Shown piece by piece: positions 6,435 through 18,765 of a stretch of 27,112 bases of DNA. The notes below the pieces were generated by a model that was given only the letters and a program-made list of their open reading frames with translations, had not been told where the DNA came from and ran no database searches. Position numbers and translations under genes: made by a program. The stretch's first letter is position 1; every line of letters begins with the position of its first letter. Where the stretch lies: IMG/VR virus record IMGVR_UViG_3300047483_000609, positions 1 through 27,112 of that record; one strand, given 5' to 3'. Origin of the DNA: a virus.

Positions 6435-6680
6435 ATGGCAAAAAGACCAGAACCATCTATGAAAGATAAACCAACTAAATTTGAATACACTTATGAAGAT
6501 GATGAGTGTATTTCTATTTGGAAGTATGATAAGAAAAAATTTCCAAATGGTCCAATCTCCGTAGAATATAAATGGAAACCTGCATTTACTGCTCGATTAA
6601 AAGAAATTCAAAAACAAGAAAAAGCAGCAAAGAAAGTTAAAACTAAAACTAACGAAAAAACGTTAAGTAAATTTAAATGA
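6435..6680 (+). CDS. Small basic hypothetical protein (81 aa)
   Basis: 81 aa with a Lys-rich, low-complexity C-terminal tail (QKQEKAAKKVKTKTNEKT) after a more ordered part containing aromatic residues (EYTYEDDECISIWKYDKK, VEYKWKPAF). The charge pattern suggests nucleic-acid binding, but no motif confirms it. It sits 2 nt after thyA and overlaps the metK start by 4 nt (ATGA), so it is translationally coupled to both. No family is recognised. Confidence 0.68.
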   Translation: MAKRPEPSMKDKPTKFEYTYEDDECISIWKYDKKKFPNGPISVEYKWKPAFTARLKEIQKQEKAAKKVKTKTNEKTLSKFK

Positions 6681-7633
6681 GAACCGCAGAATTTATATCA
6701 CCTAACCATCCAGATAAATTGTGTGATATTATATCAGATACTTTATTAGATAAATATTTAGAACAAGACCCATTTACACAATGTAATATACAAGTAAGTG
6801 GTGGGTATGGTATTATATATGTTATAGGTGAAATAGCATCTGATTATACTTTGTTATATTCCGATATAAAGGAAATTGTATATAATATTTCTCAAATTGA
6901 AAATGTCGTAATCAATTTAACCAAAATAAATAAATCTCAATTTATAAATAAGTTTGGAATATCAATTGGATATGCAACAAAAGAAACTGAAACGTATTTG
7001 CCATTTGAATTTCATCATGCTAGAGAATTAAATAAATTTATTTATAATCATAAACCATTTGAAGGTAAAACTCAAATTACAATAAATGGAGATTGGGTTG
7101 ATGTAGTTGCATCATTTCAAAATACTACTAAGGATGAATTAGAAAATTTAGTAAATGATTATATTAAAACTACAAATTTTCATTTGAATAAACTACATTG
7201 TAATTCAACCGGTGATTGGGATGGGGGTGGATTATTAAATGGCGTTGGTTGTTCCGGTAAACAAAATGTAATTGATAATTATGGACCGAGAATACCATTA
7301 GGTGGTGGTTCATATAGTGGAAAGGATGCTACAAAAATAGATAGATGTGCAGGTTATATGGCTAGACGAATAGCAGTAGATTCATTAAAACAATATGGAT
7401 TACAATATGCATTAGTAGAACTAAGTTATTCAAATAACCAACAAACACCATTACAAGCACGAATAAAAGGGAACGATAGTGGTATAAATGTTGAAACTGG
7501 TCTTAAACTATATGAAGTTAAAGATTATGATTTAACTCCTAATGAAATTATAGATTTTTTAGATTTAACACAACCTATTTACGCAGAAACCTCAAAATGG
7601 GGACATATGGGAAATGAATTTAATTGGAAATAA
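6677..7633 (+). CDS. metK: S-adenosylmethionine synthetase (MetK), short and divergent
   Basis: 318 aa against about 380 in bacterial MetK. It should make SAM from ATP and methionine. Recognisable blocks are FISPNHPDKLCDIISD (6-21, His11 and Lys14 for ATP/phosphate), GISIGYATKETETYLPF (94-110), KTQITINGDWVDVV (131-144), PLGGGSYSGKDATKIDR (207-223, Lys216 and Lys220) and LDLTQPIYAETSKWGHMG (295-312). Two standard pieces are reduced. The GDQG part before GYATxET is absent, and the GGPxGDxGLTGRK loop is replaced by TGDWDGGGLLNGVGCSGK (178-195). The region is exceptionally AT-rich. It ends the thyA operon, with a new promoter starting one base after its stop. The family is secure; activity is less certain. 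Confidence 0.86.
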   Translation: MRTAEFISPNHPDKLCDIISDTLLDKYLEQDPFTQCNIQVSGGYGIIYVIGEIASDYTLLYSDIKEIVYNISQIENVVINLTKINKSQFINKFGISIGYATKETETYLPFEFHHARELNKFIYNHKPFEGKTQITINGDWVDVVASFQNTTKDELENLVNDYIKTTNFHLNKLHCNSTGDWDGGGLLNGVGCSGKQNVIDNYGPRIPLGGGSYSGKDATKIDRCAGYMARRIAVDSLKQYGLQYALVELSYSNNQQTPLQARIKGNDSGINVETGLKLYEVKDYDLTPNEIIDFLDLTQPIYAETSKWGHMGNEFNWK

Positions 7634-7899: not shown

Positions 7900-8517
7900 A
7901 TGCAAATTGTAAAAGACAAACTTAAACTATCTAAACCGATTAAACCTTCAAAATTATCTGCAGAAGAAATTCAAAAGATTACTGATACTCTTACTACCGA
8001 ATTAGAAAAGCATGGTGGAATTGGATTATCTGCTAATCAGTTAGGTTTGGATGTTCGTGCATGTATAATTAAGGTAATCGACCCGTTAGTTTTAATCAAC
8101 CCAACTATTATTGAACGCTCAGAAGATGCTGTTGCGTATGTAGAACAATGTTTATCTATTGATAAAACATTAAAAAGTCCAGTTAAGACAGTTCGTTCAA
8201 AACGAATTTTAGTAGAAACTGATAATTTAGGTGTAGTAGAATTTAAAGCAGATAATCAATTTAATGATTGGAAAGATGCAGATGAATTCTTTGGTGATGC
8301 CGGTTTAATGGAATGTGTTTGTGCACAACATGAAATCGACCACTTAGATGGTATTCTTATTACTGACCAATCTCGTAGATACACAACTACTTACATTGCA
8401 CCAAAATCATATGGTAGAAATGAAATGGTTATGGTTAAATTACCAGATGGAAAAACTGAATTTATGAAATATAAAAAGGCACAGAAATTCTTAGAAGTTG
8501 GTGCGGAGATTGTATAA
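7900..8517 (+). CDS. def: Peptide deformylase with C-terminal extension
   Basis: 205 aa. The three peptide deformylase motifs are intact: motif I GIGLSANQ (40-47), motif II EQCLS with metal-binding Cys84, and motif III QHEIDHLDG (143-151) with metal ligands His144 and His148 and catalytic Glu145. The enzyme removes the N-formyl group from nascent proteins. Phage versions are common auxiliary genes in marine T4-like phages. The family core ends around residue 155. An extra stretch of about 45 residues (to GAEIV) includes KLPDGKTEFMKYKKAQKF. It is second in an operon that also encodes the late sigma factor. It is complete and probably active. Confidence 0.92.
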   Translation: MQIVKDKLKLSKPIKPSKLSAEEIQKITDTLTTELEKHGGIGLSANQLGLDVRACIIKVIDPLVLINPTIIERSEDAVAYVEQCLSIDKTLKSPVKTVRSKRILVETDNLGVVEFKADNQFNDWKDADEFFGDAGLMECVCAQHEIDHLDGILITDQSRRYTTTYIAPKSYGRNEMVMVKLPDGKTEFMKYKKAQKFLEVGAEIV

Positions 8518-9246: not shown

Positions 9247-10008
9247 ATGGCAAAACAAAGAAAACCAAAAGATAAAATTTATTTTGGAACACCTGCACAA
9301 GATGCAATTGTTGAATATAATAAATGTAAAGACCCCGTTAAAAGGTCAAAGATTTACGAAGAAAGAATTAAATATCCTTTTGAAAAACTAGCAGAGAATG
9401 TTTTAAATACATTTAAATTCTCCTACTTTGATGTATCTAAAAAAGATATACAAATGGAAGTAGTTTCTACAATGGTAGAAAAGATGCATATGTTTAAAGA
9501 AGGTAAAGGTAGAGCATTCTCTTATTTTACCATTATTGCAAAAAACCATTTGATTTTAAAGAACAACGGAAACTATAAACGTTGGAAACAAAATGCATTG
9601 ATTTCAGAAATGCCAGAAAGTTGGAATCCTGAAAATGATTTCTATGAAGTTGAAGAAGGTAGTGAATTTAGAGAATTCAAAGATATAATGTTAGCATATT
9701 GGGATAAACATCTTACTACTATTTTTAATAAGAAAAGAGATATTCAAATTGCAGATGCTGTATTAGAATTATTCCGTAGAAGTGATTATATAGAAAATTT
9801 TAACAAAAAACATTTATATCTACTTATTAGAGAAATGACTGATTGTAAGACCCATTATATCACAAAAGTGGTAAATATAATGAAACAACATCAGAAAAAA
9901 ATGTTAAACGATTATTTAGAAGACGGTGATTTTTCAGTAAGAGATGAACCTTTTTGGGTGTCACCGGATTCCATACCAGATATGGAGGAAGATTTTGATG
10001 AAGAATAA
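9247..10008 (+). CDS. 55: gp55-like sigma factor for late transcription
   Basis: 253 aa. Residues about 43-105 match sigma region 2 as found in T4-type gp55: FEKLAENVLNTFKFSYFD, a helix (IQMEVVSTMVEKMHMFKEGK), then RAFSYFTIIAKNHLI, the core-binding and -10-reading region. T4 gp55 directs host polymerase to TATAAATA late promoters together with the sliding clamp. Here a helical segment around 165-215 (DIQIADAVLELFRR ... THYITKVVNIMKQHQKK) could be a rudimentary region 4-like helix-turn-helix. The C-terminus is acidic (PDMEEDFDEE). A T4-like hydrophobic clamp-binding tip is not evident. Its probable targets are the TATTTATA motifs listed here. It lies in the operon promoted at 7634, as expected for a middle-expressed late regulator. 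Confidence 0.85.
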   Translation: MAKQRKPKDKIYFGTPAQDAIVEYNKCKDPVKRSKIYEERIKYPFEKLAENVLNTFKFSYFDVSKKDIQMEVVSTMVEKMHMFKEGKGRAFSYFTIIAKNHLILKNNGNYKRWKQNALISEMPESWNPENDFYEVEEGSEFREFKDIMLAYWDKHLTTIFNKKRDIQIADAVLELFRRSDYIENFNKKHLYLLIREMTDCKTHYITKVVNIMKQHQKKMLNDYLEDGDFSVRDEPFWVSPDSIPDMEEDFDEE

Positions 10009-11710
10009 ATATATTTTAGGAATAGCAAGTGGGTATCATGATTCTGCAGCATGTTTAGTAAAAGATGGTAAAGTTTTAGGTGCAGTTGAAGAAGAAAGAT
10101 TTACAGGAATTAAACACGATTCTTCATTCCCCACTAATGCAATTAAGTGGTTATATAACGAATTTAAAATTACCGGTGCAGATGTATCGGTAGTTTCGTT
10201 TTATGAAAATCCTACATTAAAGTTAGAACGAATTGAAGAAACTACTAAAAGAGGTGGTGTATTACAATACTTTAAACGTAATGGGATTTTAAAAGAAAAT
10301 AAACAAAACTATAAGGAAACGGAACGTAAGATTTATGAAATTACAAATGATAATATAATTTTATCTTATGGAGACCATCACTTATCTCATATTGCGTATT
10401 CTTACTATACATCACCATTTGATAGAACTGCTATCCTTTCAGTTGATGGAGTTGGTGAATGGGAAACGACAGTTTTAGCATTTGCTGAGAATAATAAAAT
10501 TACAAAATTACAAAATATTAAATTCCCACATTCGTTGGGTATGATTTATTCTGCATTCACTGCTTTCTTAGGATTTAAACCAAATGAAGGTGAATATAAA
10601 GTAATGGGTCTTGCACCATATGGTAATCCAAATACTTACACTAAACATTTTAAGGAAATTATAAAGGAAACCGAAAATGGTGAGTTTGAAATCAATATGG
10701 ATTATTTTACATATGATTATTCAAACAATTCTATGTTTAACGAAAAATTGGGATTGTTATTAGGTATTCCAAATAGATTACCAGAAGATGAGTTATTACA
10801 ACAACATAAAGATTTAGCAGCAACAATCCAATCACAATACGAATATTATTTTTTCCGTTTATTAAATAGAATGTTTGCAACACACCCATCTAACAACATT
10901 TGTTTAAGTGGTGGTTGTGCATATAATGGAACTGCAAATGGGAAAATAACAAACGAAACTCCATATAAACAATTATGGATTCCACCTGCTCCATCTGATG
11001 CTGGTTCTGCAATTGGTTGTGCGTTAGAATACTATTATAGTAATACTCCCAATGCAGTTAGAGTTGATAATACAAATCCATACTTAGGACCATGGCATTC
11101 AAACGATGAAATTAAAGAAGAATTAGATAAACACTCAAATGATATTTGGTATGAATATAAAAATCACTCCGAACTTATTCCAATCATTTCTAAACAAATT
11201 ACGGATGGAAATGTTATTGGCTGGTATGAGGGTAGAATGGAATTTGGTTCTCGAGCACTCGGTAATCGTTCTATACTTGCTAACCCAAGAGACCCACAAA
11301 TGAAAAGTAGGGTAAATAGAGTAATCAAAAAAAGAGAAGGATTTAGACCTTTTGCACCAATTGTAAAGGAAGAAGACCGTTTGAAATATTTTGATTACAA
11401 ACTTTTAGTTCCATATATGAATCAGGTTGTTAAGGTAAAAGAAGAACATAGAAATCAATTACCGGCAATCACGCACATAGATGGTTCTGCAAGAATACAA
11501 ACCCTAAATAATAGACAACATAAAAGAATGTATTCACTTTTAAATCAATTACAAATTGATAATGAATACCCTATTGTTCTTAATACCTCATTCAATTTAA
11601 AAGATAAAACTATTGTAAATTCACCAAAAGATGCAATTGAAACATTTTTAGATTGTGAAATGGATACATTAGTGTTAGGAAACTATCTTGTGAAGAAAAA
11701 AATAAAATAA
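9998..11710 (+). CDS. Carbamoyltransferase (NodU/CmcH/TobZ family)
   Basis: 570 aa. The start at 9998 is chosen because it begins the conserved MKNKYILGIASGYHDSAACL, follows a GGAGGA stretch and overlaps the sigma gene by only 11 nt; an ATG at 9944 would add 18 unrelated residues. The N-terminal ASKHA/Kae1-like domain has YHDSA (13-17), VEEERF (30-35), the metal motif HHLSH (127-131) and SVDGVGEW (148-155). The middle carries CLSGGCAYN (302-310). The C-terminal domain has EGRMEFGSRALGNRSILA (411-428) and KKREGFRPFAP (444-454). Such enzymes make carbamoyl-adenylate from carbamoyl phosphate and ATP, then carbamoylate a hydroxyl on a small molecule or possibly a modified base. It is the last gene of the operon. 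The substrate is unknown. Confidence 0.92.
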   Translation: MKNKYILGIASGYHDSAACLVKDGKVLGAVEEERFTGIKHDSSFPTNAIKWLYNEFKITGADVSVVSFYENPTLKLERIEETTKRGGVLQYFKRNGILKENKQNYKETERKIYEITNDNIILSYGDHHLSHIAYSYYTSPFDRTAILSVDGVGEWETTVLAFAENNKITKLQNIKFPHSLGMIYSAFTAFLGFKPNEGEYKVMGLAPYGNPNTYTKHFKEIIKETENGEFEINMDYFTYDYSNNSMFNEKLGLLLGIPNRLPEDELLQQHKDLAATIQSQYEYYFFRLLNRMFATHPSNNICLSGGCAYNGTANGKITNETPYKQLWIPPAPSDAGSAIGCALEYYYSNTPNAVRVDNTNPYLGPWHSNDEIKEELDKHSNDIWYEYKNHSELIPIISKQITDGNVIGWYEGRMEFGSRALGNRSILANPRDPQMKSRVNRVIKKREGFRPFAPIVKEEDRLKYFDYKLLVPYMNQVVKVKEEHRNQLPAITHIDGSARIQTLNNRQHKRMYSLLNQLQIDNEYPIVLNTSFNLKDKTIVNSPKDAIETFLDCEMDTLVLGNYLVKKKIK

Positions 11711-11721: not shown

Positions 11722-11789
11722 TTCGAAAACCTTGTGGTTAAACATTCAGTGCACTTAGATGCATTTGAGTTGGAGAAATACCAACGAAT
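11721..11789 (+). promoter_or_regulatory. Structured 5' leader of the zinc-ribbon gene
   Basis: Three adjacent hairpins can form: AACC-ttgt-GGTT (11728-11739), AGTGCA-cttaga-TGCATT (11748-11765, one G-U pair) and GTTGG-agaaata-CCAAC (11769-11785). They can be closed by ATTCG (11721-11725) with CGAAT (11785-11789), sharing one C with the third stem. The 69-nt layout is compact, but the stems do not fit a tRNA (D-loop of 4, anticodon loop of 6 or 8). It may be a cis-acting translation or stability element. Confidence 0.35.
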
Positions 11790-11822
11790 GAATTTTTAAA
11801 TACAAATAAAATAAGGAAAAAT

Positions 11823-12614
11823 ATGAAACAATCAGTATGGACAAGTGGGAGTCCGTCAAACCCACAAGCGTTTGTCACAAAGAACAAACAAAGAGTAAAA
11901 CAATTCGAAGGTCAGGTCTATCTTAATGATGGAGATGAATATCAAATCGAATTATTCAACCCAACTCCAAATCACATCTTAGCTAAAATCAAAATCGATG
12001 CCAATTATCTATCTGGTGGTGGTATTGTATTACGACCTGGTGAAAGAGTGTTTTTGGAAAGATTTTTAGATACAAATAATAAGTTTGTATTCAAAACCTA
12101 TGAGGTAGGAAAAGAAGCAGTTAATGCAGGTGCTCTTGCAAATAATGGTTATGTTAAAATTGAATTCTGCCAAGAACAACCGAAATTTAATTCATACCCC
12201 AATTATCCACTAAATAGAACCATTTATGATAATGGAATTTTAAGAGGTAATAGTGGATTTGGTACAACATATACTACAAATACGTTGGGGAATACAACTT
12301 TTACAACAACGGGAACATCTCTTACTACATCAACGGCGTATTATAATAATATTACTCCAACTTCGGCAATAGCTACAAATAATAAAGTAGAAACAGGTTT
12401 AACTGAAAAAGGTGGAAGTTCTAATCAAACATTTACAAATTCAGATAGAGAATTTTATTCATACTCATTTCATAATGTAGCATGGAGAATTTTACCAACA
12501 TCACAAAAACAATATCGTAAAGAAGAACTTTCAGTTGCGTATTGTGGAGAATGTGGTGCAAAAAGAAAAAAAGATACACATAAGTTCTGCCCACATTGTG
12601 GAACTAAATTCTAA
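11823..12614 (+). CDS. Probable virion-associated protein with C-terminal zinc ribbon
   Basis: 263 aa. The N-terminal part (about 1-115) is beta-rich (VYLNDGDEYQIELFNPTPNH, then GGGIVLRPGERVFLERFLDT), suggesting a jelly-roll or beta-sandwich. A low-complexity Thr/Asn/Ser region follows (about 145-205, TTYTTNTLGNTTFTTTGTSL). The C-terminus is a compact zinc ribbon, C241-x2-C244 and C256-x2-C259 (YCGECGAKRKK ... FCPHCGTKF). Single-gene transcription from a TATTTATA motif and a strong terminator directly behind suggests an abundant late product, perhaps structural. I recognise the architecture but know no function. Confidence 0.75.
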   Translation: MKQSVWTSGSPSNPQAFVTKNKQRVKQFEGQVYLNDGDEYQIELFNPTPNHILAKIKIDANYLSGGGIVLRPGERVFLERFLDTNNKFVFKTYEVGKEAVNAGALANNGYVKIEFCQEQPKFNSYPNYPLNRTIYDNGILRGNSGFGTTYTTNTLGNTTFTTTGTSLTTSTAYYNNITPTSAIATNNKVETGLTEKGGSSNQTFTNSDREFYSYSFHNVAWRILPTSQKQYRKEELSVAYCGECGAKRKKDTHKFCPHCGTKF

Positions 12615-12640
12615 ACAAATATAATCACAAGGTATTCACT

Positions 12641-12668
12641 AAGGAGAGCAGAAATGTTCTCCTTTTTT
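12641..12668 (+). terminator. Intrinsic terminator after the zinc-ribbon gene
   Basis: A 9-bp stem AAGGAGAGC (12641-12649) / GTTCTCCTT (12656-12664), with one G-U pair and loop AGAAAT, runs directly into a T tract ending at 12668. It isolates the late gene from the promoter at 12703. Confidence 0.85.
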
Positions 12669-12702
12669 ATTGAAAAAAAAATTAAAAATATTTTACAAAA
12701 TA

Positions 12703-12734
12703 TTTGGAAAAGTGGAATATTCTTCGTATGTTAG
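12703..12734 (+). promoter_or_regulatory. Bacteroidota-type promoter of the two-gene cassette
   Basis: TTTG at 12703-12706, a 20-nt spacer ending TTCG, then TATGTTAG at 12727-12734, a weaker -7 box. An overlapping better -7 match, TAGCTTTG at 12732-12739, would have a 25-nt spacer. The ATG at 12772 follows with a roughly 30-nt A-rich leader. Confidence 0.65.
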
Positions 12735-12771
12735 CTTTGTAATAAGAGTTAAACATAAAACAAATAAAAAT

Positions 12772-12987
12772 ATGAACGATTTACAATTAAAATCTTTGAT
12801 TACTGGCTTGACTTTAGTTGAGTATGTTGATTTCGTAGAGAGTAGAGCTCTTCATTTGGGTGTTGATGCTGAGGAATTGAATATTGAGTTTTGGGAGAAG
12901 AATTTGATTAGTATGGTTAAGTTTGACCTTGCAAAAGCCGAGTTACATCGTAGAGATTTTATGTTTGCCCATTATGGTGAGTATTAA
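12772..12987 (+). CDS. Small acidic hypothetical protein of the cassette (71 aa)
   Basis: 71 aa from ATG 12772. The open frame extends upstream to an ATG at 12670, but those 34 codons cover the promoter and the tail of a terminator, so the shorter start is preferred. The product is acidic and helical (QLKSLITGLTLVEYVDFVES, LHLGVDAEELNIEFWEK, VKFDLAKAELHRRDFMF), without membrane segments or cysteines. Codon use differs sharply from neighbours: seven GAG to one GAA, and several TTG leucines, in a genome that favours GAA and TTA. First gene of a promoter-to-terminator unit. No family is recognised; an anti-host or anti-defence role is possible but unsupported. Confidence 0.72.
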   Translation: MNDLQLKSLITGLTLVEYVDFVESRALHLGVDAEELNIEFWEKNLISMVKFDLAKAELHRRDFMFAHYGEY

Positions 12988-13015
12988 TAATTGTTAAACT
13001 TTAAAATATAAAGAT

Positions 13016-13240
13016 ATGAGAATAGATATTGCAACCTTAAAAAAGATTGAGAGTGAGTTTGGTAATTTTGATATTTCACAAGTGTGGGGTGGTTCAAATG
13101 ATGTGTATTTGAGATTTGGTTATTGGGGTAGAGTTGATGTTGAAAAACTCCAAGAGATTGTTGGAAATGGTGTAAAAGTTGTTGAAGATGACGATTACGA
13201 TGATGATTGTGGATATCAGTTTATGTATCGTTTAAAGTAG
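13016..13240 (+). CDS. Small acidic hypothetical protein of the cassette (74 aa)
   Basis: 74 aa. It has an N-terminal helix (IATLKKIESEFGNF), a Trp/Gly/Tyr-rich beta region (VWGGSNDVYLRFGYWGRV) and an acidic run VVEDDDYDDDCGY (55-67) before a beta-strand ending. By my count it has 15 acidic and 9 basic residues. The fold may be a small alpha/beta domain. Guanine-rich codons (GAG, TTG, GTG) again differ from flanking genes. Its stop lies inside the left arm of the terminator at 13234. Function unknown. Confidence 0.74.
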   Translation: MRIDIATLKKIESEFGNFDISQVWGGSNDVYLRFGYWGRVDVEKLQEIVGNGVKVVEDDDYDDDCGYQFMYRLK

Positions 13241-13264
13241 TAGAAATCTCTACTACTTTTTTTT
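13234..13264 (+). terminator. Intrinsic terminator closing the two-gene cassette
   Basis: A perfect 11-bp stem AAAGTAGTAGA (13234-13244) / TCTACTACTTT (13249-13259) with loop AATC, followed by a T run to 13264. The stop codon of the 74-aa gene (TAG at 13238-13240) is inside the stem. Confidence 0.88.
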
Positions 13265-13286
13265 ATATCATTTTAAAATAAAAATA

Positions 13287-13294
13287 TATTTATT
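13287..13294 (+). promoter_or_regulatory. Possible late promoter, one mismatch (TATTTATT)
   Basis: TATTTATT differs in the last base from the TATTTATA motif and ends 35 nt before the ATG at 13330. It lies just after the terminator at 13234-13264, where a promoter for the Ntn-hydrolase gene is needed. Confidence 0.35.
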
Positions 13295-13329: not shown

Positions 13330-14139
13330 ATGGATACTAAATTGAATGAATGTATTATTGTTAGAAAGAAAATGGGTGATACTGTCGTTATGGCTAAGAA
13401 CCGCGATAGAATGTATAAACCTGAATTAGAAATAGTACATGAATTGATTAATGGTGTTGAGGTAGTTTATCTACATGATATAACTACGGATTGGAGTGAA
13501 GGTATAAATGAATATGGTATTGGAGTTCTTAACACTGCATTGATGGTTGGATATGATGAGAAAGAAAAGCAGTTGGTTAAGAAGACAGGTAAGAAATCAA
13601 AAGATGGTATTAAGATTAGAGAAGCATTAGGACAAAAATCCTTAAAGAATACTATAACAATAGCAGCTAAATTTATGGGTGGTATTAAAGGCCATACTTT
13701 CATATCTACTCCAGATAAGGTAGTATCAATCGAAACTACATCAAAACACAATCCACGTTTTACAATACATCAATCAGATGCACATGTGGTTAGAACTAAT
13801 CATGGACACGACCATTGGGATGCGGGATATACCGAAGGACCTGATTATCTTTCATCGAAGGTAAGGAAAGCATCAGCAGAAAAACTGACAGGAAAAGCAG
13901 AAGACCCTGCAAGTGTATTAGATGCTTTAAGAAAAGATTTGTTCAGTCAAAAATCAAATCTTAATATGGCACGTAAAACTGATAAAATGAATACATCATC
14001 ACAAGTTTTGTTAAATCTAAGTGACCTTATTTTTGAATTAAACTATTTTGATGACAAGGTGGAGAAATTTCACGGAATAAAAACAAATTTACCAAAAGGT
14101 TATGAAGCAAAAATCAAAATAGAAATCAAAAAAATGTAA
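13330..14139 (+). CDS. Ntn-hydrolase-like protein (C45/choloylglycine/TANGO2-like fold)
   Basis: 269 aa. A seven-residue leader precedes Cys8 in ECIIVRKK, followed by VVMAKNRDR (19-27), the Cys...N-R-D signature of N-terminal-nucleophile amide hydrolases. Also visible are SEGINEYGIGVLNTAL and RTNHGHDHW, which match the family's NExG and rTNH elements. Known members cleave linear amide bonds (acyl groups, bile salt conjugates, peptides) after exposing the cysteine. If processing occurs here, removal of MDTKLNE would expose Cys8. The gene precedes the tail block and stands after a terminator, so it has its own promoter. The substrate is unknown; a peptidoglycan or signalling amide is possible. 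There is no signal peptide. Confidence 0.68.
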   Translation: MDTKLNECIIVRKKMGDTVVMAKNRDRMYKPELEIVHELINGVEVVYLHDITTDWSEGINEYGIGVLNTALMVGYDEKEKQLVKKTGKKSKDGIKIREALGQKSLKNTITIAAKFMGGIKGHTFISTPDKVVSIETTSKHNPRFTIHQSDAHVVRTNHGHDHWDAGYTEGPDYLSSKVRKASAEKLTGKAEDPASVLDALRKDLFSQKSNLNMARKTDKMNTSSQVLLNLSDLIFELNYFDDKVEKFHGIKTNLPKGYEAKIKIEIKKM

Positions 14140-18141: not shown

Positions 18142-18765
18142 ATGGATTCTAAAAAATTAGCACAACTAATTAAATTAGTAGTAGAACAAGAAATTAAAAA
18201 ACAACTTCCTAAAATGATTAAAGAGGAGGTTAGTAAGTTATTAAATGAAACTGCAAAACCAACTCCTAAGAAAAAGGATATTTTGGAAGATGTAGACCCA
18301 TTTGAACTTGCAAATCAATTGTTAGATAAGGAAAGAGTGCAAACTCCTAAGATTCAACAAGAATCAGTTCAGCCTAAAAGACAATTTTCAAAAAATCAAA
18401 CAATAAACGATATTTTAAATCAAACTAAACCATTTACTTCTGCACAACGCACAGAAGGGCCAGTAGGTGGTGGTGCATCGATATTGGATAATTTCCAACA
18501 ACCGATGAATGAAGGTTATTCAAATTCACACATTCCAAACTATATGGATGCAGAACCCGATATAGATGAAACTATGTCATTTGGTGGTGGAGCATTAGGT
18601 GGAGTGGAATCTATGAGAGCACAAATGGCTGCTAAGATGGGATATGGTGATATGAATGTTGGTGGTGGTAATAGAGGTGGATTGGGTGTTCAGACAGGTT
18701 TAGCAGGATTAGATAGAATTTTAAATAGAGATAATTCAGAATTAGTTAAGAGGTTTAAAAAATAA
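18142..18765 (+). CDS. Hypothetical tail/baseplate-region protein (207 aa)
   Basis: 207 aa. The N-terminal amphipathic helix of alternating Lys/Glu and Leu (MDSKKLAQLIKLVVEQEIKK to about residue 35) is followed by a polar Gln/Pro/Lys-rich middle. Residues about 145-185 are Gly- and Met-rich (FGGGALGGVESMRAQMAAKM, NVGGGNRGGLGV), and the tail is helical. It appears mostly disordered, with no recognisable domain. It lies between the GH19 gene and gp25 and overlaps the gp25 start (TAATG), so it is coupled to the wedge genes. It could be an assembly factor or minor baseplate component; I cannot name it. Confidence 0.68.
   Translation: MDSKKLAQLIKLVVEQEIKKQLPKMIKEEVSKLLNETAKPTPKKKDILEDVDPFELANQLLDKERVQTPKIQQESVQPKRQFSKNQTINDILNQTKPFTSAQRTEGPVGGGASILDNFQQPMNEGYSNSHIPNYMDAEPDIDETMSFGGGALGGVESMRAQMAAKMGYGDMNVGGGNRGGLGVQTGLAGLDRILNRDNSELVKRFKK

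Follow-up and report, generated by a model that had tools for sequence, protein, structure and literature searches.

A moron-like, putatively early two-gene cassette between late genes of a large uncultivated phage

The moron, a concept reportedly due to Juhala, Hendrix and colleagues, is a gene that carries its own promoter and terminator and is inserted between phage genes. Large lytic phages of the T4 type carry small early gene cassettes for host takeover and anti-defence. Both systems are worth comparing with a cassette found at about positions 12669–13264 of a 27,112 bp virus record, a linear fragment analysed here at its full length (the window) and derived from an uncultivated large ("giant") phage. 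The cassette encodes two small proteins on the plus strand, P1 (71 aa, pI 4.8; 12772–12987) and P2 (74 aa, pI 4.4; 13016–13240), each belonging to a phage-only family. Like a moron, it is an autonomous unit between two transcription units, variably present at one site, of a composition unlike that of its neighbours and consisting of short genes without assigned function. It differs from morons in having two genes and no known prophage copy, in a promoter and codon use of the phage's own early-gene type, and in that P2 is widespread among related phages rather than an occasional acquisition. With the early cassettes of T4-type phages it shares short, fast-evolving acidic proteins, host-type promoters and a scattered occurrence of its genes, singly or in pairs, but it is inserted in a late structural region, and the P1 and P2 families are absent from PHROGs, Pfam, NCBIfam and 50,697 deposited phage records. 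With a probability of roughly 0.6, we regard this stretch as an early cassette, moron-like in kind, of a large phage whose hosts are Bacteroidota-like.

Among long relatives of the phage, the closest is L009 (record G001; 287,455 bp), a contig to which the proteins neighbouring the cassette are mostly 80–100% identical; a DNA similarity search against deposited phages returned no match to the region. The window encodes T4-type baseplate proteins (at 18765 and 19203), tail-associated enzymes and thymidylate synthase. By family matches it also encodes a set of metabolic and repair genes, namely an IscA-like protein (1553–1876), UvsE (1930–2829), a peptide deformylase (7900–8517), a NodU-type carbamoyltransferase (9944–11710) and, by a partial match only, an SAM synthetase (6677–7633). 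Rfam and tRNA searches across the window yielded nothing at threshold.

Boundaries, promoter class and codon use

An earlier note, made from the letters of the window, had described a self-contained two-gene unit lying between two intrinsic terminators behind a host-type promoter, with flanking genes using a late motif, and this anatomy is borne out. The upstream terminator (12641–12668; hairpin 12641–12664 followed by a T run) ends gene 11823–12614, and that of the cassette (13234–13264; hairpin 13234–13259 and a T run) starts within the last codons of P2, thus overlapping the gene end. Their folding energies, −14.0 and −12.4 kcal/mol (z = −5.4 and −4.2), are equalled by no shuffle. Many genomic contexts contain gene 11823 together with its terminator, and because the terminator follows this gene in relatives with very different downstream genes, it belongs to gene 11823 and not to the cassette. 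The second terminator is kept in L009 and L061 but is absent from the L021 relative, so that the degree of insulation appears to vary. The downstream edge is marked by TATATTTATT (13285–13294, plus strand), which precedes gene 13330–14139 and represents a candidate late-promoter motif, TATATTTAT[AT]/ATATTTATA. This motif stands upstream of both flanking genes (11713 and 13285), and upstream of transcription units at 260, 14286, 18109 and 25111 of the window as well. On the plus strand of a sister genome, it was found at 26 intergenic positions versus 3 within genes, mostly 27–36 nt upstream of the start codon.

The promoter of the cassette (12703–12748, plus strand) consists of TTTGG-N19-TATGTTAG, spanning 12703–12734, and then CTTTGTAATAAGAG, and is a variant, here termed the TTAG class, of the Bacteroidota −33/−7 promoter. 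With a model trained on 42 sites from two related phages, orthologous sites being excluded, it scores 65.4 bits, compared with 41.6 for the next best site of the window and 2.4 for the best of 40 dinucleotide shuffles, and it is conserved among sister phages though the coding sequence has diverged. Promoters read by the primary sigma factor of Bacteroidota have the elements TTTG and TAnnTTTG, refined to TTTG at −33 and TAHHTTTG at −7 (PMC2483708, PMC6847099). The cassette promoter shares with these the −33 TTTG, a similar spacing and the TA opening of the −7 element, and its type points to a host of the Bacteroidota kind. However, the −7 element TATGTTAG departs twice from the refined TAHHTTTG, and the class as a whole, TATnTTAG with a conserved downstream CTTTGTAATAAGAG, lies outside that consensus; its recognition could therefore depend on a modified polymerase or on a factor of the middle phase. 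The window has three further genes behind recognisable host-type promoters (1930, 4374 and 7698), so that the cassette is not the sole unit of this kind. A scan for Escherichia coli sigma-70 promoters, the wrong type for this phage, gave 25 sites versus 31.9 expected, nothing above chance.

Two host-like promoter classes, distinguished by the −7 element (TATnTTAG-CTTTGTAATAAGAG versus TAnnTTTG), were observed in the genomes G001 (L171–L185) and G019 (L225–L239), the latter class being a close fit to the Bacteroidota primary-sigma promoter; the TTAG class, which precedes short genes poor in A and rich in GAG, numbers 24 sites in G001 and 20 in G019. Upstream of P1 in five other loci (L144, L149, L158, L196 and L068), there is a further promoter form, CTTGACTT-N-TACCTTTACTATGTAATAA, which drives P1 in those phages and has the downstream TATGTAATAAGAG element in common with the promoter of the cassette.

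The two promoter classes also bear on the codon use of the cassette, for which the earlier note had claimed a dominance of GAG and TTG over the GAA and TTA of the neighbours. The GAG skew is real (GAG:GAA of 10:3 in the cassette versus 71:514 in the remaining listed genes, p = 2.5e-7), although it resides chiefly in P1 (7:1, versus 3:2 in P2), while TTG merely equals TTA (6:6). Third-position A is likewise low, 0.17 and 0.26 in the two cassette genes versus 0.36–0.53 elsewhere. The skew is family-wide for P1 (25 sequences; GAG 73%, median third-position A 0.16), and the P2 family is intermediate (GAG 35%, third-position A 0.31). In G001, the low-A genes comprise a clustered block of small genes at 123–128 kb plus the cassette, and the genes behind TTAG-class promoters combine a median third-position A of 0.31 (TTTG class 0.43, p = 9e-5; all genes 0.41, p = 3e-6) with a high GAG share (0.31 versus 0.16 for all genes). 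In G019, the corresponding values are 0.34 for the TTAG class, 0.40 for the TTTG class (p = 0.04) and 0.41 for all genes (p = 8e-4). The difference between the classes holds among short genes alone (p = 0.001 and 0.013), and the most GAA-rich genes are those following the candidate late motif TATATTTAT[AT]. Since genes following promoters of this class show the same skew in two related phages, the odd codon use of the cassette, unlike its neighbours yet like the phage's own early promoter class, appears to be a mark of that class and not of foreign origin, a reading of the codon use that we rejected after this comparison. Codon skew is thereby weakened as evidence for recent acquisition, and the promoter model may be used to search these uncultured phages for further early genes.

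Presence, movement and coding status of the two genes

Comparison with sister phages, by which the variable presence of the cassette could be judged, revealed one relative (L206) with the flanking genes and no cassette. In this contig, the carbamoyltransferase gene, gene 11823, the terminator, the late motif and genes 13330, 14149 and 14317 follow one another, and only 128 nt lie between 11823 and 13330, which reads as an empty site at exactly the position of the cassette. This is a single contig of 8.3 kb whose flanking genes are fairly diverged (50–87%); either a gain or a loss would account for it. The cassette is present in L009, L021, L022, L032, L161 and L164, and in L195 and L222 another unit with a host-type promoter directly follows the same terminator. 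A 244 bp block containing the L009 copy of P1 recurs at 95% identity in L149/L145, behind an unrelated promoter and among unrelated flanks; P1 has thus moved between unrelated promoters as a module of about 240 bp. With its own promoter, its own terminator (the L021 relative excepted) and its presence or absence between adjacent genes, the locus accords with the moron reading of the earlier note as regards anatomy, variable presence and modular movement, but the codon skew, being common to the early genes of the phage, lends no support to a foreign origin.

P1 and P2 adjoin in at least three contexts, namely after gene 11823, in L067/L101, where P1 precedes P2 in one and a divergent P1 follows P2 in the other, and in L087. 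That the two genes meet repeatedly in different settings points to a functional link, though each gene also occurs alone: in a survey of 115 P2 matches and 30 P1 matches over partly overlapping loci, most P2 loci were without a neighbouring P1, as were many P1 loci without a neighbouring P2.

Because dN is below dS for both proteins against every relative tested, P1 and P2 are genuine genes under purifying selection, evolving faster than their neighbours. Against L009, P1 has a dN of 0.34 and a dS of 0.88, and P2 a dN of 0.09 and a dS of 0.49, compared with a dN of 0–0.06 for neighbouring genes; against relatives, dN/dS is mostly 0.3–0.5 for P1 and about 0.1–0.2 for P2. The earlier note had called both proteins unrecognised. 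P2 is not rare, having relatives in 216 IMG/VR virus contigs, nor is it universal, being missing from long fragments of 169–203 kb, possibly incomplete ones; P1 has relatives in 31 contigs. Searches of Pfam, PHROGs and NCBIfam with both proteins gave weak, chance-level matches only, of which a SHOCT-like C-terminal hairpin of P1 (E = 0.039 in one member) is alone worth keeping as a hint. Structure prediction yielded four helices for P1 (pLDDT 90.9) and an alpha-beta-beta-alpha-beta-beta fold for P2 (pLDDT 92.5). Neither protein had a significant match in sequence and fold searches of the PDB, and P2 had no fold match at E < 0.001 in the PDB or BFVD. The best fold match of P2, a PulL/PulM-type domain (5hl8, E = 0.07, TM 0.5), is a topological lead only.

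Likely role and alternative explanations

In the predicted sequence of events, host RNA polymerase probably starts at the TTAG-class promoter and transcribes P1 and P2 shortly after the phage has infected the cell, and the structural genes on either side would await the late promoter, the terminators upstream and downstream insulating the cassette. We infer this early timing from the promoter type alone. The cassette would have entered or left the interval separating the terminator of gene 11823 from the late promoter that serves gene 13330, and related phages exchange its genes in modular form. P1 and P2 would most likely act together early, perhaps as a small complex, in redirecting the host or blunting its defence, a physical partnership that is conjectural. 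We assign them a role in host takeover or counter-defence only tentatively, at rather less than even odds, in view of the promoter type, the size of the proteins, their evolutionary rate and their mobility. Somewhat more doubtful, yet conceivable, is the wider proposal that P1 and P2 are new phage families forming, in uncultured giant Bacteroidota phages, a mobile, early, host-acting two-protein module within an undescribed early regulon, marked by TATnTTAG-CTTTGTAATAAGAG promoters and A-poor, GAG-rich genes and possibly read by a modified host polymerase.

This reading of the cassette has to be weighed against other histories. It may be an ordinary resident early operon, vertically inherited, whose position between late operons is without significance; in its favour, P2 is common and single-copy (in each of 12 records examined), and the promoter and codon use are those typical of the phage's early genes. 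However, simple vertical descent is at odds with the vacant position in L206, with the transfer of the P1 module from one context to an unrelated one, and with the differing neighbourhoods of P2, which in other phages is found next to nucleotide-metabolism genes or in series of short genes. We consider the resident operon unlikely, though it deserves serious weight. The opposite history, a foreign moron recently taken from a bacterium and acting in lysogeny, by lysogenic conversion (as the earlier note had envisaged) or superinfection immunity, could draw on the cassette's own promoter and terminator and on the difference in codon use from the flanking genes. Yet no P1 or P2 relative, prophage or bacterial, was found in 84,980 bacterial and archaeal genomes, protein searches of deposited phages and plasmids gave no match to either (for P2, the 50,697 phage records and the plasmid collection), and the skew is shared by the phage's early genes and, for P1, by its whole family; such an origin is highly improbable. 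The cassette indicates that a moron-like unit of a giant phage can be recruited from among that phage's early genes, its unusual codon use reflecting the promoter class and not a foreign source.

As to what the proteins do, the earlier note had drawn a speculative link from the acidic run VVEDDDYDDD of P2 to DNA-mimic inhibitors, and this run and the pI would speak for a mimic that inhibits a defence nuclease. The 74 residues of P2 include 15 acidic versus 9 basic ones, a net charge of only −6, and of the two conserved motifs, GGxNDVYLRFGYW and EDxxxDDDCG, the latter contains acidic positions that are conserved individually: across 51 sequences, E57, D62, D64 and G66 are invariant and C65 is nearly so, all within a predicted beta hairpin. 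This pattern better fits a folded or metal-binding site, so that the acidic run is to be read in the model as a specific site, possibly metal-binding; with no match in the fold libraries, Pfam or PHROGs, mimicry of DNA is highly improbable. A toxin–antitoxin pair would account for the sharing of one transcription unit by two small neighbouring genes and for their recurrent adjacency, but is very improbable in that each family is common without the other adjoining, so that the pair is not obligate, either gene order occurs, and no toxin or antitoxin family is matched. Returning to a joint early action on the host, the two single-domain, well-modelled, phage-only families are available for tests of host takeover.

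Flanking genes and the leader RNA of gene 11823

The gene downstream of the cassette (13330–14139) resembles the C45 autoproteolytic acyltransferase/hydrolase family, below the cut-off (E = 5e-10), and is unusual in a phage tail region. Upstream, the 5′ leader of gene 11823–12614, which is single-copy where found, contains a conserved three-way-junction RNA at about 11738–11804. Among 16 distinct relatives, 98.9% of the cells pair and two-sided changes occur in 11 of the 29 pairs; none of 500 shuffles reaches any of five measures, sliding the partners destroys the pairing, and RNAalifold unaided gives nearly the same structure. No Rfam family scored above its gathering score, and the leader appears to be an undescribed, strongly covarying structure, the covariation being strong in the junction helices. 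Its closing helix pairs 11729–11737 with 12625–12633, between stop codon and terminator, and so spans the reading frame of about 790 nt. Of the pairs in this long-range helix, six are invariant, one changes on both sides and two on one side only, and in L218, L195 and L216 the two strands are perfect complements over 12 nt.
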